A DNA stretch of 64,000 bases from Gammaproteobacteria bacterium (lineage in GTDB: Bacteria > Pseudomonadota > Gammaproteobacteria > Pseudomonadales > Pseudohongiellaceae). Positions 1,462-7,591 of the stretch are shown here, one piece after another; position 1 is the stretch's first letter, and every line of letters starts with the position of its first letter. The stretch is from positions 310,001 to 374,000 of the forward strand of contig JAUXNX010000012.1 in NCBI GenBank assembly GCA_030682575.1, in the 5' to 3' direction. Both the position numbers and the translations under genes were made by a program. The notes beneath the pieces were generated by a model. That model did no database searches, was not told where the DNA came from, and saw only the letters and a list, made by a program, of their open reading frames with translations.

Positions 1462-1974
1462 ATGAGCGAGACGCACGCAGTGCAGGACGACGTAGTCAAG
1501 CCAGACGACACAGAGCCAGAGAGAACCGCGGGCCTGCTGCGCCGTCTGGCAGCGTTGCTCTACGATGCGTTTCTCGTTTTCGCTATCTGGATGGCGCTGG
1601 GATTTGCACTGCAGTTCATCGTGGGGCCCGACACCAACCGACTGGTGGATGGGCGTGTAGAAACCGATCCTGTACTCAGCATGATCCTGTTTATTGGGAT
1701 GACACTCAGCGCCGCGACTTTCTACATCTGGTTCTGGTTGCGTACCGGCCAGACGCTGGGGATGATTGCCTGGCGCATCAAGGCAGTCAATCGAGACGGG
1801 GATCTGATGTCACTCAAGCAGGGCATGCTTCGTTTTGCGCTGGCCTGGCCCGCGTTTTTCTGCTTTGGCCTCGGCTATCTGTGGTTGTATGTCGATCACA
1901 ATGGCGATGCGCTGCATGACAAATTGTCCGGCACACGAGTTGTCCTGCTTCCCAAGAGCGCTCGACCGTTCTGA
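1462..1974 (+). CDS. RDD family membrane protein
   Basis: A 170-residue membrane protein. After a charged N-terminus it has the RRLAALLYDAF stretch typical of the RDD domain (Arg, then two Asp), followed by about three hydrophobic segments and a C-terminal DHNGDALHDKLSGT motif, which is also characteristic. The function of RDD proteins is mostly unknown; some have been linked to ion transport. The start is set by a GAGGT ribosome site that overlaps the pntB stop region, only 5 bases after pntB, so the two are probably co-transcribed. The gene is followed by a long hairpin repeat that may end transcription. Confidence 0.85.
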   Translation: MSETHAVQDDVVKPDDTEPERTAGLLRRLAALLYDAFLVFAIWMALGFALQFIVGPDTNRLVDGRVETDPVLSMILFIGMTLSAATFYIWFWLRTGQTLGMIAWRIKAVNRDGDLMSLKQGMLRFALAWPAFFCFGLGYLWLYVDHNGDALHDKLSGTRVVLLPKSARPF

Positions 1975-2013
1975 CAGCATGACTGCGATGAATTCATAAA
2001 ATCTGATTCTATC

Positions 2014-2155
2014 GGCGCCGGGAGGCCGTAGCCCCCTTCTGCGGCTGACCGCGCCCCTCCGGGGTGCCCTCTCTCCGCAAAAAGCCTGGAGTCTTTTTGC
2101 TGCGTTCGGCGCTGGTCCTTTATGCCGCTGAAGGGGGCTACGGCCTCCCGGCACC
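2014..2155 (+). repeat. Long-hairpin repeat element, copy A
   Basis: A 142-base fold-back element. The outer arms (2014-2039 and 2130-2155, 26 bases each) are inverted repeats of each other with one mismatch. The central 90 bases begin TGCGGCTGAC and end TTTATGCCGCT and are shared with copies B, C and D. Inside the core is a smaller stem of CAAAAAG against CTTTTTG, and GACCGCGCC pairs roughly with GGCGCTGGTC. The arms differ in sequence from those of the other copies but stay self-complementary. There is no open reading frame that looks coding. The orientation was named by the core. Confidence 0.85.
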
Positions 2156-2453
2156 TTGCTTCACTCCAAACGACAGAATTTGCAGTTTCTTCCGACTACC
2201 TCGCTCTTCTGCGCCAACACATTGAGCACGGGAGATTCCCGCTAAACAACGCCTCCAGAGAACGGCACCAAGCGCTCCACATCACAAGATTTTCACCCTG
2301 TAGGTGCCGAAACGAGGAGACCTGCTCAATCCTGGTGCCACTCGCAGATCTGTACGGAAATGTCTGCGTACGTGCATGCCACCTACAGCTTGTGAGACAC
2401 GTTGAAAGTGCGCCAAGAAGAATCTGCAAATCCATTCGCATGGAATGTGCTCA
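2156..2453. other. Intergenic stretch between repeat copies A and B, no gene seen
   Basis: About 300 bases between two oppositely oriented hairpin repeats. Short open frames exist on both strands but none has a ribosome site, recognisable domain or plausible composition. I see no RNA gene or mobile-element remnant in it. Confidence 0.5.
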
Positions 2454-2595
2454 GGTGACGGGAGGTAGCAGAGGAGTTCAGCGGCATAAAAGACCTGCGC
2501 CGAACGCAGCAAAAAGACCTTGGGCTTTTTGCGGAGAGAGGGCACCCCGGAGGGGCGCAGTCAGCCGCAGAACTTCTCTGCTACCTCCCATCGCC
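2454..2595 (-). repeat. Long-hairpin repeat element, copy B
   Basis: Same family as copy A but with the core reversed. The arms at 2454-2479 and 2570-2595 are 26 bases and mutually complementary with about three mismatches; the inner 20 bases of each pair almost perfectly. The arm sequence is unlike that of copies C and D and only partly like A (shared GGGAGG and TTC blocks). The core (2480-2569), read on the minus strand, matches copy A at nearly all positions. It lies just downstream of the lptG stop, so it could act as a transcription terminator for the lptFG operon. Confidence 0.85.
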
Positions 2596-2657
2596 GTTCG
2601 AAAGGAGTGGCTCGAGAAGGAAGGGAACTTCAAAAGCATTCGCGTGCGAGCACGCTC

Positions 2658-3731
2658 CTACACTCTTCGCAGCAGATAGATTCCCAGCAACAAACACATG
2701 ACAATCGGCACCAACACCGCCAGCAGCGGATCAAATCCGTACAGCAGGCTCGCCGGCCCCATCATGCGCTGCACAATTGTGAAGGCAAGGCCGATGCTGA
2801 TTGCCACGAACACCCTGAAGCCCATCGTTGCACTGCGCAGCGGACCAAACACGAATGAGATCGCCAGCAGCACCAGTGATGCTGTGGCCAGAGGCTGCAA
2901 CAGTTTCTTCCAGAACGCCAGATAATAACTGTTACTCTCCAGACCTTCATTCTCGAAATATTGCGCGAACCGATACAATCCTGAGATCGATTGCCGCTCT
3001 GGCGCCACCAGCAGCACACTCAACAACTCCGGCGACATATCGACACGCCAGTCCAATGTCTCATACTGGAAAATCTCAATCTCGCCGTCACCGAAACGGG
3101 TTTCCTGCACATTGGCAAGACGCCAGAAGGGTGCGCCAGCATCCCGAATGTAGCGGGCACTGCTGGCAAAGCTGCTGCTCTGCACACGGCGGCGCTCATC
3201 CAGAACATAGCGGGTGACACCCTGCATTTCATCGCCTCCGGGCAATATCACATTGATATGAATGAACTCATTGCCTATCTTGCGCCAGTCACCGCCCGCA
3301 GAGCTGAGTGCCAGACCGCCGCTTTCTATCATGGCGAGATCACTCTGAGCACGCTGTTCAAGCTGAGGCGCAACGAACTCGCCCAACACCAGACTGATCA
3401 CCATCACGCCAAGGGTCGGCTTGGTCACAGCCCAGACAATGCGAGACGTACTCACGCCCGCCGCCTGCATCACTATCAATTCGTTGTTGGATGCCAGAAT
3501 ACCCAATCCAATCAATGCACCACCCAACGCAGAGAAGGGCAACATCTCGTAGATACCTGTCGGCATGATACGCAAGGTGAAGAACAACGCATCACCGGCG
3601 CTGTAGTTGACGGTGTTGCTGCCCAACTCGTCCGCAAGAGTAAAGATGAAATCGAGACTGCTCATCAGAGCCATCACTACCAGCATGGCAAGAATCACAC
3701 TCTTGCCAATATATGCATCGAGCTTTCTCAT
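2658..3731 (-). CDS. lptG: LPS export ABC transporter permease LptG
   Basis: Inner-membrane permease of the LptB2FGC complex that extracts lipopolysaccharide and passes it to the periplasmic bridge. The protein is 357 residues, usual for the family. It begins with KLDAYIGKSVILAML, has an N-terminal group of helices, a periplasmic beta domain in the middle and three C-terminal helices ending LLLGIYLLRRV. The ATG at 3731 is chosen because a GAGGAGG ribosome site precedes it; the open frame extends upstream into lptF but without homology. It starts 10 bases after the lptF stop, so the two form an operon. Confidence 0.95.
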   Translation of the reverse strand: MRKLDAYIGKSVILAMLVVMALMSSLDFIFTLADELGSNTVNYSAGDALFFTLRIMPTGIYEMLPFSALGGALIGLGILASNNELIVMQAAGVSTSRIVWAVTKPTLGVMVISLVLGEFVAPQLEQRAQSDLAMIESGGLALSSAGGDWRKIGNEFIHINVILPGGDEMQGVTRYVLDERRRVQSSSFASSARYIRDAGAPFWRLANVQETRFGDGEIEIFQYETLDWRVDMSPELLSVLLVAPERQSISGLYRFAQYFENEGLESNSYYLAFWKKLLQPLATASLVLLAISFVFGPLRSATMGFRVFVAISIGLAFTIVQRMMGPASLLYGFDPLLAVLVPIVMCLLLGIYLLRRV

Positions 3732-3741
3732 GATCGCCTCC

Positions 3742-4836
3742 TCACACAGACCGCCGTCGACCAGGAAGTCCAAACAACAGGAACAGGCCAAAAAGCAGGA
3801 AAAGACCGTGCACCCACCATAGGCCGATCGTGGGTGAAATGCTGCCCCCTCCGGTAAGATCCATCGCCACCTGCAGCAGCACGTAATAACCTGCATAGAT
3901 TATCGCTGCGGGCACCAGCTTGCTGTAGCGCCCCTGACGCGGATCGACACGGCTGAGTGGCACGGCAATCAGAGTCAGCACAGGAATCAGCAGCATCACC
4001 GAGAGACGCCACTGCAACTCGGCCTGTTGCTTCGGATCTGCCGAATTCCACAACTGCTCTGTCGGCAGCGCCTTCTCCCGCACCACTTCACCAATGCGTG
4101 TCTGCTCGGGCAGCAACAACGCCTGCTCCTGAAACTGTGTCACGAGGTAGTCAGCCTGACCAGGCACACCATCGTAGAGATAACCGTTCTCCAGCAGCAT
4201 GAAGCGTCTGCCACTCGTCTCTTCGATTATTGGGCGCGCACTCTCTGCCACAATGATTCGCACGCCAACTTCCCCCTCGCCGGAATCAGGACGTCGCCAT
4301 GCCACAAAGGTATTGTTGAGTTGGCGCCCTGCCGCTTCCACGCTGATGTCTTCCGCATAGGTGGTACGCAGACCATCGGCAAAATCCTGAAATTGCCCGG
4401 CCACAATAAGATCAAGCTCGGTCAACTCGTCCTGACTCCGCATCAGTTGTTCAGTATTCTGCAGCCCCCACGGTGCCACCTGCAGGCTGAGTCCGCCGAC
4501 TATCACCGCAACGATGGAAGAGCAGAGCAAGGTCGTAATCACCAGCCTCCTCTGGCTGATGCCACAGGCTCCGAGAACTGTCATCTCGTTGTCGGCGTAC
4601 ATCCGACCATAGGCAAGCAGAATGGCGAGAAAAAGTGCGAAAGGCAGGATAACTAGGAGAAACTCGGGAAGACGATACAACATCAGCAGTACAAGAATGT
4701 CGGAGGTAATCTCTCCTGCAACTGCCTGCCCCAGATATTGCAGAAAGCGTGTGATCATCGCGACCACCAGCAGAATGACGGTCACGGCAGCCATCACCTG
4801 AAGAATCTGCCGGCTCAGATAGCGGATGATGATCAC
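3742..4836 (-). CDS. lptF: LPS export ABC transporter permease LptF
   Basis: Partner permease of LptG in the lipopolysaccharide export complex. It has 364 residues and the family's typical start IIIRYLSRQIL, a DNEMTVLGACGIS segment (the conserved stretch before helix 3), a periplasmic domain, and the PLSRVDPRQGRYSKLVPA motif before the last helices. The start is GTG at 4836: it gives the start residues expected for LptF, and there is an in-frame stop a few codons upstream. The ribosome site is weak. The pair is divergent from pepA with the thioesterase gene between, close to the E. coli arrangement. Confidence 0.95.
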   Translation of the reverse strand: MIIIRYLSRQILQVMAAVTVILLVVAMITRFLQYLGQAVAGEITSDILVLLMLYRLPEFLLVILPFALFLAILLAYGRMYADNEMTVLGACGISQRRLVITTLLCSSIVAVIVGGLSLQVAPWGLQNTEQLMRSQDELTELDLIVAGQFQDFADGLRTTYAEDISVEAAGRQLNNTFVAWRRPDSGEGEVGVRIIVAESARPIIEETSGRRFMLLENGYLYDGVPGQADYLVTQFQEQALLLPEQTRIGEVVREKALPTEQLWNSADPKQQAELQWRLSVMLLIPVLTLIAVPLSRVDPRQGRYSKLVPAAIIYAGYYVLLQVAMDLTGGGSISPTIGLWWVHGLFLLFGLFLLFGLPGRRRSV

Positions 4837-4861
4837 AATGGCACCCGTTCGTCAGTGTTAA

Positions 4862-5302
4862 TCAGATCACATCCTCTGATTGCCCCAACATCTCGCGGAA
4901 TGCCTTGGGTATCAGTGCGATTTTGTGTTTGTCGAAATCAAAGAACACCACACCCATCTTGGCATTGCAAACCACACGGTCGAGTGCGGAATTGGTGATC
5001 TGAAAACAAATGTCGAAACCATAGCGATTGAAGCGACCCAGGCCCACGTCAATGACCAATACATCATTGGCGAACGATTCGGAGCGATAGTCCACTGCCA
5101 GGTCCGTTACTACCATGCCGTGTCCGAAGACGTTGGCTTCAGTAAAACCAAGATTAGCCAGAAACTGCAGGCGCGCTTCATGAACGATATGCACCATGGC
5201 AACACTGTTCAAGTGTCTGGCGTAATTGAGATCGCTGATGCCCACCGGATATCGCATTGTAAATATGAACTCTTCCGGCATGTTGATTTTGATGCGTGGC
5301 AT
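4862..5302 (-). CDS. Acyl-CoA thioesterase, 4-hydroxybenzoyl-CoA thioesterase/YbgC-like hotdog family
   Basis: A 146-residue single hotdog-fold protein. The segment VGISDLNYARHLN corresponds to the catalytic region of the YbgC/FadM family, in which an Asp acts near the start of the long helix. Such enzymes hydrolyse acyl-CoA thioesters; the substrate here cannot be told. It is on the minus strand 25 bases upstream of lptF and may be transcribed with the lpt genes. No other domain is present. Confidence 0.8.
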   Translation of the reverse strand: MPRIKINMPEEFIFTMRYPVGISDLNYARHLNSVAMVHIVHEARLQFLANLGFTEANVFGHGMVVTDLAVDYRSESFANDVLVIDVGLGRFNRYGFDICFQITNSALDRVVCNAKMGVVFFDFDKHKIALIPKAFREMLGQSEDVI

Positions 5303-5586
5303 TGTGATCTCGTTTTTATGAATTGATCGTGCGAACTGATCTTGTGAATCGTGACGGCTGTGCGAAGGCCGCCAATTCTAATCAGCGGGCCTGCATAAGT
5401 ACACTTCTTTAGCCCGTGTGAGCTGGCAGGTCCCGCAATTTCATCCCCGTACCAACCAATTCCGCACGGGGTTTGCTCGCAGACGGAGCGCCGCCCTCGC
5501 CCTTGCTTAACCCACTGAATATCTTTAGGATTGTGCCCCTGTCTTCAGTCCATTCATACGCCAGCATTGCCAGGAAACCTACGATC

Positions 5587-7074
5587 ATGAAATATTCACT
5601 ACTGTCCGCCAGCACCTCCACCAAAGCCACTGACTGCCTCGTTCTCGGTGTCTGGACCAAGAACAAACTCACAGCACAGGCTGCGGCTGTGGATAAGCTT
5701 CTGAACGGCGAAATCAACCGCATCGTTGGTTCAGGTGACGTCACCGGCAAAATCGGTGATTCACTGTTCATGCATCCGATGACCGGCAATGCCAAACGTA
5801 TTCTTCTGGTAGGTTGTGGTGACGAAGGCGCGCTGGATGCCCGCAATTATCGCAAAGTGATCAACGCGACCATCAAGGCCATCCTCAAATCGACTGCAAA
5901 GGACGCTGTACTTGCGCTGGCAGAGTTGCCGTTGAAGGATCGTGATCCCGCCTGGGCCATTACACTGCTGGTACAGGAATGTGACAACTGCACCTACCAG
6001 TACGATCATACCAAGAGCAAGAAAAAACCCGCGCACGCGCTCAAGGCAATTGCCATCACCACTCCTGCGGATGCAAACCGCAAAGCCATGACTGAGGCAT
6101 TGAAGGCAGGCGAGAGCATTGCCGTCGGCGTCAGTGCTGCAAAGGAACTCGGCAACCTGCCAGGCAACATCTGCACTCCCACCTATCTTGCCGACACGGC
6201 CGTCAAGCTGGCCGGACAGTACAAGTCTCTTACCACCAAAGTCCTCAACGAAAAACAGATGGAGAAGCTGGGCATGGGCTCGTTGCTATCCGTCAGCGCT
6301 GGCTCAAAGGAAGAAGCGAAGCTGATCGTCATCGAATACAAGGGTGCGGTCAAGACAGAAAGCAAACCGTATGTACTCGTGGGCAAGGGTATTACGTTCG
6401 ACACGGGTGGTATCAGCCTCAAACCTGGCCTGGGCATGGACGAGATGAAGTACGACATGTGCGGCGCAGCAAGCGTGATCGGCACCATGACCGCCGTGGC
6501 CGAACTGGGTCTGGCCATCAATGTCATCGGGGTGATTGCAGCAGCCGAGAATATGCCCAGTGGCAAGGCCACCAAGCCCGGTGACATCGTCACCAGCATG
6601 TCCGGCCAAACCATAGAGATTCTGAATACAGACGCCGAAGGCCGTCTCGTACTCTGCGATGCGCTGACCTATGTCGAGCGCTTCAAGCCAAAGACTGTCA
6701 TCGACATCGCCACCCTCACGGGAGCCGCCGTAGCCACTTTTGGTGACCAGACCAGTGCCCTGCTCAGCTCCCATCAACCTCTGGCCGATGAACTGCTGGG
6801 CATCAGCCAGCAGACCCTCGACTTTGTGTGGCAACTGCCCCTCTGGGAAGAGTATCAGTCATTGCTCGACAGCAATTTCGCCGACATCGCCAACATCGGC
6901 GGTCCCCGGGCAGGCACCATCACTGCGGCTTGCTTCCTGTCCCGCTTCACGAAGAAGTACCACTGGGCACATCTGGACATCGCTGGAACAGCGTGGCTGT
7001 CCGGTGCACAGAAAGGTGCCACTGGGCGCCCGGTACCACTGCTGGTGGAATATCTGCGCCGCCAGAAGGCTTGA
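5587..7074 (+). CDS. pepA: Leucyl aminopeptidase PepA (M17 family)
   Basis: Cytosolic aminopeptidase of 495 residues with two metal ions, which releases N-terminal amino acids from peptides; in E. coli it also binds DNA. Residues 1-155 are the N-terminal domain; the peptidase domain follows, with the metal-binding KGITFDTGG around residue 267 and the family signature NTDAEGRL around residue 346. The ATG at 5587 is preceded by an AGGAAA site and gives the usual start KYSLLSAS; longer in-frame starts have no homology. It is divergent from lptFG. The holC gene usually found between pepA and valS is not here; hairpin repeats C and D occupy the gap. Confidence 0.96.
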   Translation: MKYSLLSASTSTKATDCLVLGVWTKNKLTAQAAAVDKLLNGEINRIVGSGDVTGKIGDSLFMHPMTGNAKRILLVGCGDEGALDARNYRKVINATIKAILKSTAKDAVLALAELPLKDRDPAWAITLLVQECDNCTYQYDHTKSKKKPAHALKAIAITTPADANRKAMTEALKAGESIAVGVSAAKELGNLPGNICTPTYLADTAVKLAGQYKSLTTKVLNEKQMEKLGMGSLLSVSAGSKEEAKLIVIEYKGAVKTESKPYVLVGKGITFDTGGISLKPGLGMDEMKYDMCGAASVIGTMTAVAELGLAINVIGVIAAAENMPSGKATKPGDIVTSMSGQTIEILNTDAEGRLVLCDALTYVERFKPKTVIDIATLTGAAVATFGDQTSALLSSHQPLADELLGISQQTLDFVWQLPLWEEYQSLLDSNFADIANIGGPRAGTITAACFLSRFTKKYHWAHLDIAGTAWLSGAQKGATGRPVPLLVEYLRRQKA

Positions 7075-7090
7075 GATTGACTCCGAATCC

Positions 7091-7249
7091 GATCTGAGGA
7101 GAGGGGGAGGTGGGGCTTCGGTTCTGCGGCTGACCTGCGCCGCTCCGCGGTGCCCTCTCTTCGCAAAAATCCAGAAGTCTTTTTGCTGCGTGCGGCGCTG
7201 GTCTTTTATGCCGCTGAACCGAAGCCCCACCTCCCCCTCTCCTCAGATC
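7091..7249 (+). repeat. Long-hairpin repeat element, copy C
   Basis: A 159-base fold-back element 16 bases after the pepA stop. The arms 7091-7124 and 7216-7249 are 34 bases each and form a perfect inverted repeat. The core (7125-7215) is homologous to copies A, B and D. The arm sequence is purine-rich and unlike the other copies. It may serve as the pepA terminator. Confidence 0.88.
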
Positions 7250-7343
7250 TTGCATTGTGCTTCCTCGCTTCGCACTCTTGGAAGCGTTTCCATCCGAGCA
7301 GAAATGCCTTGCCCGCGATCTTTCTGCAGAAGGCACATGACAA

Positions 7344-7483
7344 GGCGGCAACTGGCAGAGCCCGGTTCAGCGGCATAAAAGACCAGCGCCGCACGCAACA
7401 AAAAGACCTTGGGCTTTTTGTGGAGTAAGGGCATCCCGGAGGGACGCGGTCAGCCGCAGAACCGGGCTCTGCCAGTTGCCGCC
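7344..7483 (-). repeat. Long-hairpin repeat element, copy D
   Basis: A 140-base fold-back element with perfect 25-base arms (7344-7368 and 7459-7483) and a reversed core (7369-7458). It faces copy C across 94 bases. The core carries several substitutions relative to A-C (for example TTACTCCA in place of CTCTCCG), so it is the most diverged copy, while its arms remain perfectly complementary. Confidence 0.87.
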
Positions 7484-7591
7484 GTCGACCATGGTGAAAA
7501 TCACGGGCAGGGCCCGCTCCCACAGGTGGCGCTTAGCGGTTATACTCCTCTCCTCTTTTAAATCGCCCACACGCAAGGTTTGCAGCACTCA

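Follow-up and report, generated by a model that had tools for sequence, protein, structure and literature searches.

Four hairpin units at two intergenic sites

The stretch of DNA analyzed here (the window) covers 64,000 nucleotides of a gammaproteobacterium of the Pseudohongiellaceae (assembly GCA_030682575.1, contig JAUXNX010000012.1, positions 310,001 to 374,000) and carries, near its start, four copies of a hairpin-forming unit that are the subject of this work. A first-pass annotation made from the sequence alone had described these as a four-copy repeat with a shared core and self-complementary arms peculiar to each copy. Both a repeat search and a covariance model of the core (R1, built from 41 copies) recover all four copies where they had been placed, and the arms are indeed inverted repeats within each copy, with 88-98% complementarity (Table 1). 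The four copies are real, but they belong to a larger family, here termed family 1, with 26 covariance-model matches at E <= 0.01 in the genome of the window (G000; 3.73 Mb in 33 contigs); a BLAST search of the same genome gave 31 matches, of which 27 had E <= 2.1e-6. The PepA protein encoded beside doublet 2 has its best relative among the named genomes searched, which may lack records of this genome itself, in a Pseudohongiella metagenome-assembled genome (69% identity), so that the organism stands near Pseudohongiella. The window copies form two divergent doublets, with core-to-core gaps of 342 bp in doublet 1 (units 1 and 2) and 145 bp in doublet 2 (units 3 and 4), and both doublets lie between genes whose names were assigned by reading translations of their open reading frames (ORFs). 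The fold energy of each unit is 7.7-13.1 standard deviations below that of dinucleotide shuffles, none of 200 shuffles equaling it; unit 3 was folded as 7094-7243 to stay within the folding length limit.

Table 1. Positions of the hairpin units, their cores, and their surroundings in the window, with loci of the second family and of mixed doublets
Feature	Position or locus	Strand	Description
Unit 1	2014-2155	-	Basal stem (P1) arms 2014-2045/2124-2155, 32 nt, 94% complementary; repeat search
Unit 1 core	2036-2133	-	cmsearch model R1, 114.1 bits; unit fold z -9.0
Unit 2	2454-2595	+	P1 arms 2454-2485/2564-2595, 32 nt, 88% complementary; repeat search
Unit 2 core	2476-2573	+	cmsearch R1, 118.7 bits; unit fold z -7.7
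Unit 3	7091-7249	-	Arms 7091-7130/7210-7249, 40 nt, 98% complementary; repeat search
Unit 3 core	7121-7219	-	cmsearch R1, 117 bits; fold z -13.1 for 7094-7243
Unit 4	7344-7483	+	Arms 7344-7374/7453-7483, 31 nt, 97% complementary; repeat search
Unit 4 core	7365-7462	+	cmsearch R1, 113.9 bits; unit fold z -9.5
Doublet 1 spacer	2156-2453	.	AGATTCT/AGAATCT-like motifs close to units, by eye; other G000 doublets also conserve inner flanks of this kind
Doublet 1 intergenic region	1975-2657	.	Between convergent RDD-family gene (1462-1974, +) and lptG (ends 2658, -)
Doublet 2 intergenic region	7075-7591	.	Between pepA (+) and valS (+)
Family 2 loci	L249, L250, L259, L247, L256; own genome L302-L327		
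Mixed doublets	L178, L182, L183, L202, L204, L226, L233, L043, L044, G005:C55:13653-13996		

Anatomy of the unit

A unit is about 145 nt long and consists of a basal stem, P1, of about 22 bp and variable sequence, with a conserved branched core at its tip. For the analysis of this anatomy, 147 matches from the fetched loci were oriented. In the 135 copies with known arms, P1 complementarity runs from the core to position 21-22 and is at background at 23, and the first 20 positions comprise 2318 Watson-Crick, 144 GU, 28 AC, and 210 other cells. Clear pairing past 22 nt (7-8 of the next 8 positions) occurs in the arms of 4 of 134 copies, unit 3 among them. The core branches into P2, P3, and P4, with 96.2% of cells paired in 106 distinct rows, and its covariation score in the same rows is 0.398 versus 0.032-0.075 for slid-partner controls. 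The loop of P4 holds a GGA that is invariant in 41 aligned family 1 copies. The sense (folding) strand, as set by the GU bias described below, is the one that reads GTTCAGCGGCATAAAAGACC and on.

Outside P1, foot motifs are conserved in part of the copies, namely, GGCAC at 7-12 nt outside the stem on the one side and GCCGG or CGAAG after it on the other. One genome with a conserved foot is G004, where 13 copies have CGCTGGCA-N7-AGGC before the variable arm and GCCGG after; in G007 and G004 together, GGCAC is present in 34 of 49 copies, usually at -34. Column counts in three genomes show no T run after the stem of the kind that directly follows the hairpin of an intrinsic terminator. Two other readings were rejected by eye. 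TGGCAC does not make a sigma-54 promoter, as the -12 element does not fit the consensus. Integron attC sites carry the boxes R'' (RYYYAAC) and R' (GTTRRRY), and here the closing letters vary (GTTC, CTTC, ATTC, GGGG, CGCC) and GTT precedes AAC.

Compensatory change in the arms

When the core was searched for throughout the genome and its relatives, the copies found had arms that pair within a copy (median paired fraction 0.95) and not across copies (median 0.50, 95th percentile 0.80, maximum 1.00). Arms also differ far more than cores: the median identities of arm and core are 0.37 and 0.84 in G000 (22 well-paired copies), 0.50 and 0.81 in G007 (28 copies), and 0.50 and 0.88 in G004 (13 copies). 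To this extent the arms are copy-specific, as had been proposed, but they are not random for each copy. Subfamilies share arm sequences, at least six copies of the own genome (L003, L008, L009, L010, L017, and L024) having near-identical arms by eye, and similar arms are retained by many orthologous copies (29 clusters).

The orthologous copies reveal how the arms change. We compared 72 ortholog pairs from 24 clusters, calling a pair near if the left arms were at least 0.6 identical. In the 50 near pairs, 908 base pairs are unchanged, 51 have undergone a Watson-Crick double change, and 5 show other paired double changes; there are 70 GU steps, 15 AC steps, and 39 single mismatches, with 6 broken doubles and 6 mismatch-to-mismatch changes besides. 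The 22 far pairs, each of which may represent one insertion or independent insertions at one site, have 193 unchanged base pairs, 197 double and 28 other paired double changes, 18 GU steps, 4 AC steps, and 11 mismatches. On the sense strand of 48 nonredundant, well-paired copies, there are 42 GU, 9 AC, and 50 other mismatches (GU versus AC, p = 3e-6). This GU excess is seen on one strand only, and therefore one strand is the folding one. As orthologous copies change stepwise and GU exceeds AC on the sense strand, the arm variation is best explained by compensatory change within a single strand that folds. The arms behave like a rod whose length is fixed and whose pairing is selected, with the information residing in the core and the foot. 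Of the explanations that the first-pass annotation had offered, selection on a hairpin is supported by the stepwise compensation between orthologs, the one-stranded GU excess, and the covarying branched core.

Another of them was snap-back or template-switch copying, whereby one arm would be rewritten from the other at replication and pairing would be kept without selection. Such copying would account for the long near-perfect arms of some copies (e.g., 7091-7249) and for the orthologs L155 and L184, which differ by 12 double changes and no single change. However, it predicts GU and AC in equal numbers, against the 42:9 noted above and the 70:15 between near orthologs, and sense-strand mismatches in 123 copies are purine-purine in 144 cases versus pyrimidine-pyrimidine in 15. 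We therefore consider snap-back copying a very unlikely source of the pairing as a whole: it is not needed and predicts no GU bias, though it may have contributed in places.

A second family on the same plan

The same plan is built around another core in a second family, recognized by GAGCCCCCANGGANGGGTTCACGGCGTGTC. By model, all 14 genomes of the genus carry it, each with 19-56 matches; by pattern it is found in 42 of 194 genomes of the order, with 26 places in G000. The family 2 core is made of two hairpins. In 26 aligned copies, the second loop keeps ANGGAN with an invariant GGA and the first loop an invariant GG, while the first stem consists of different pairs in different genera and has 5-11 pairs in 15 of the 16 copies examined among them. 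In the own genome, family 2 cores are 92% identical (22 copies) and arms 37% (16 copies). Over 25 positions in 19 family 2 copies, the arms comprise 437 Watson-Crick, 19 GU, 5 AC, and 14 other cells. Nine of 21 copies have the GGCAC foot at -41 to -43, a distance outside the stem similar to that in family 1.

The two families also meet in mixed doublets. Nine of these, from six sites, are present in the fetched loci and a tenth in G005, and all ten are divergent; cores of families 1 and 2 can therefore be doublet partners. At two sites, the family found at the corresponding place differs between genomes (L156 versus L178, and the RDD-lptG site in G000 and G007 versus G004). A scan of 80 named pepA loci (~1.5 Mb) gave no family 2 match. 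As a side observation, locus L290 of G078 holds an array of six family 2 units on one strand at a spacing of ~227 bp, that is, five tandem neighbors.

Orthologous, empty, and decayed sites

The sites occupied in the window can be followed in relatives. At the pepA-valS site, which was read across in eight relatives, five have a single family 2 unit and three have neither family. The RDD-lptG site measures 0-86 bp in seven relatives and lacks these arms; ordinary REP-like repeats (REP, repetitive extragenic palindromic) are present there in G008 and G009. In G010 the RDD-lptG region is 171 bp long, with a run of N and a coreless palindrome of arm and foot sequence, both sides and feet of which match the outer arms and feet of the two G000 units. 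Another G010 site has lost the core and one arm, with the other arm remaining, and at a third the partner unit persists as a remnant. Because of these lost cores and arms and the remnants, it is clear that the units decay.

These sites bear on the third explanation of the first-pass annotation, under which the core alone would be mobile and insert into existing palindromes such as terminators, the arms differing as the targets differ. The disparity between the 92% identical cores and 37% identical arms of family 2 would follow from such insertion, and the coreless G010 palindrome at RDD-lptG could be an unoccupied target. We take that palindrome instead to be the product of a deletion between both members of a doublet, its two feet matching the outer feet of both G000 units. 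The empty RDD-lptG sites of the seven other relatives hold no arms, foot motifs, where present, stand at a fixed distance outside the arms, arms are common to paralogs and retained among orthologs, and the G010 site that kept one arm has lost the core together with the other. We accordingly give very little credence to insertion into ready-made palindromes.

In L213 (G002), two extra genes stand between two units at pepA-valS, encoding an LptE-like protein of 182 aa and an NHL-repeat protein of 396 aa, and in L173 (G007) part of this extra segment is inverted relative to one unit. The orthologous doublets L006 (G000) and L035 (G010) have their arm types on swapped sides, as if the doublet had been inverted or reinserted in reverse.

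Doublet geometry and position relative to genes

The divergent arrangement of the window doublets prevails in the genus. With 150 matches listed for each family there, close neighbors (gap <= 400 bp) among those listed are divergent in 47 of 50 cases, tandem in 3, and never convergent. This total comprises 26 divergent, 2 tandem, and no convergent pairs of family 1 with itself, 15 divergent and 1 tandem pairs of family 2 with itself, and 6 divergent pairs of the one with the other; orthologous doublets enter these counts more than once. Neighboring family 1 units in the fetched loci are divergent in 30 cases, tandem in 2, and convergent in none. The 26 loci of other genera have 7 divergent, 4 tandem, and no convergent neighbors, and four close family 2 neighbors in fetched loci outside the genus are divergent (L292, L295, L297, and L300). 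Five G000 doublets (L003, L008, L009, L014, and L017) at different loci share both units and, on either side, ~45-50 bp of inner flank, and the middles of their spacers are unrelated. This suggests that doublets spread as units.

By our own ORF calls, none of 147 units lies within a predicted ORF. After removal of orthologs and exclusion of tandem groups, 57 of the 80 genes located 3' of a unit are oriented toward that unit (p = 1.8e-4), at a median distance of 63 bp. Single units do not appear to carry a third core beside them, as a hairpin with 18 of 20 pairs was found on the 5' side of 1 of 70 singles; the 3' control gave 2 of 71 (L220 and L223), both artefactual, the units lying near the start of the locus.

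Relation to known repeats and the question of mobility

The units resemble, on an outsized scale, palindromic repeats already known from bacteria, the nearest known kind being the doublets of REP and REPIN sequences (REPIN, REP doublet forming a hairpin). Like REPs, bacterial interspersed mosaic elements (BIMEs), and REPINs, as these are described in PMC3116915 and PMC3733652, they are intergenic palindromes often found as inverted doublets with a variable spacer; the same papers report hybrid dimers of two families and stems that vary with compensation and GT pairs. The statement of the first-pass annotation that no named repeat class has these properties was thus too strong, since PMC3116915 calls compensatory hairpin changes common in REPINs and PMC3733652 describes GTAG families with subfamilies that have alternative complementary stem residues and often GT pairing. 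However, the GTAG/CGTC repeats have stems of 5-13 bp with loops of 2-20 bp (PMC3733652, Table 1), and REP/REPIN units are 20-40 bp long with GTAG or CGTC at the foot of the stem, as opposed to the ~145 nt, branched conserved core, and ~22-bp stem of the units here. GTAG-like letters occur by eye at some unit ends only, several nucleotides off the stem, and there is no Y1 gene or gene for a REP-associated tyrosine transposase (RAYT) beside the units. We do not claim REP/REPIN membership: the units depart from that kind in size, foot tag, and RAYT linkage, even though the geometry and stem evolution are REPIN-like.

Other comparisons are looser. Like the units, the enterobacterial repetitive intergenic consensus (ERIC) and the Pae-1 stem-loop family are structured repeats, ~100 nt in length and scattered between genes, for which action at the RNA level has been suggested (PMC2267715); they differ in that ERIC is described there as one long stem-loop and Pae-1 as two stem-loops lying side by side. 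Miniature inverted-repeat transposable elements resemble the units in being short, noncoding, and dispersed, with inverted ends in the doublets, but here the ends consist of folded units instead of plain inverted repeats, and neither a parent transposase nor a target duplication was identified. At the doublet ends, no clear target duplication is visible by eye, and relatives are too diverged to place the ends. RNAs that bind CsrA/RsmA present GGA in stem loops. The GGA of the unit loops recalls this motif at the level of sequence, but there are only one or two such loops per unit.

A REPIN-like DNA element of larger size would be the corresponding alternative: single-stranded DNA (ssDNA) would fold at replication, an HUH-type or other single-strand transposase would act on it, and the stem would be kept for mobility. 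Divergent doublets, intergenic sites, and variable paired stems all match what PMC3116915 and PMC3733652 report for REPINs and REP dimers, the doublets appear to have moved as units, and the GU bias fits a strand-specific ssDNA equally well. Against this, none of the 30 Y1 transposase loci of the genus (30 Y1_Tnp matches from 13 of the 14 genomes, with ~1.5 kb on each side) holds a family 1 or family 2 unit, while ordinary REP-like repeats are found at 4 of the 30; G002, a genome 86% complete, has no Y1 match and yet 25 family 1 copies; and compensation at fixed orthologs would not be maintained by selection for mobility alone. We regard such an element as possible but unlikely. Mobilization by RAYTs was rejected on the grounds of the 30 Y1 loci, none of which adjoins a unit. 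Autonomous copies with a gene between the units were likewise rejected, the proteins of L213 and L195 matching LptE, NHL/propeller, and, below cutoff, helix-turn-helix domains, with no transposase; the three proteins examined between distant units have no transposase domain. Separately, the only Y1_Tnp match of G000 (L138, on G000:C31) is a long, solitary RAYT-like gene of 325-331 aa, with neither REP-like repeats nor hairpin units within ~1.5 kb.

A proposed folded strand acting in place

With structure, covariation, strand bias, stem length, doublet geometry, dispersion, and orthologous persistence all observed in these genomes, we think it reasonably probable that the units are a dispersed hairpin element, mobile at least formerly, that works as a folded single strand, and RNA is more likely than DNA to be that strand. 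The ~22-bp stem would hold the branched core, together with the foot motifs in some copies, at a fixed distance. For the stem itself mainly length and pairing would matter, so that its sequence would drift by compensatory change and come to differ between copies. Units stand singly or in doublets pointing apart, between genes and preferably downstream of them; the sense strand would be RNA made by read-through from neighboring genes, a protein would bind foot and core, and the effect would be on the 3' ends or stability of neighboring transcripts. An enzyme acting in trans would have spread the doublets. That fixed orthologous copies show compensation argues for a function in place, of which RNA would be the simplest carrier.

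Several observations weigh against this reading. The GU bias is predicted by ssDNA as much as by RNA, and the core covariation is measured on an alignment fitted to the model. A role at transcript ends is conjecture, because no U-run was seen and there is no significant strand preference relative to codirectional genes (12 versus 8 with orthologs removed; an apparent antisense placement of 20 versus 8 with orthologs included was discarded on that account). The GGCAC foot is found in only 6 of 25 copies of the own genome, and no mobilizing enzyme was identified. Within-cluster comparisons and orthologous doublets are not independent, and the 22 far ortholog pairs include 33 double changes that leave the pair broken. 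Finally, of the 136 copies whose arms are known, 13 have fewer than 16 of 20 positions paired; these did not enter the ortholog comparison or the GU/AC statistics. Some of these stand at contig ends and several in the fragmented genome G005; in L015, at the end of contig C8, the right arm complements the left arm of L002, at the end of C27. We infer that the poorly paired copies are assembly or recombination chimeras.

In this family, the length of the stem, the branched core, the orientation of doublets, and partly the foot are conserved, whereas the stem sequence is free. This separation provides a natural test between two views of bacterial palindromic repeats, namely, that they are folded strands acting in place or that they are only mobile debris. 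Compensation at fixed orthologs argues for the former, a question that arises for REP-like repeats as well. The mixed doublets provide a direct experimental handle, with family 2 present in every genome of the genus. More speculatively, the two interchangeable GGA-loop cores, carried on sequence-free rods across whole genomes, might constitute a dispersed RNA system, for instance a network titrating a regulator that binds GGA or a control of transcript ends in both directions, which spread by mobility and was then kept by selection; we hold this to be unlikely.

Distribution

Family 1 is found in 10 of 14 genomes of the genus, with 5 to 41 matches each, the covariance model giving no match in G001, G003, G006, and G012; under stricter filters it is present in 12 of 390 sampled genomes of the order, G000 included. 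The window has no match above gathering score in Rfam 15. A lax Rfam search of window positions 1950-2650 and seven family 1 or 2 loci returned nothing credible, the matches being to eukaryotic microRNA and internal ribosome entry site models and a Yersinia small RNA model, all below their gathering scores and rejected. No report of these sequences was found in the open-license literature searched. Contigs break inside or beside units, and the complementary arms of L002 and L015 suggest that the ends of C27 and C8 join.

One exact pattern per family gave no match in viral contigs, which is weak evidence given exact matching, and neither pattern matched in phages. Plasmids likewise have no match to the family 1 pattern, whereas the family 2 pattern matches in two alphaproteobacterial plasmids. 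In plasmid pDCA of Ancylobacter novellus (L357, 2440-2667), a family 2-like unit is flanked by an ISAs1 transposase gene on one side and a haloalkane dehalogenase gene on the other, and the same match recurs in a plasmid record of Xanthobacter flavus; this unit may have traveled with the dehalogenase gene.

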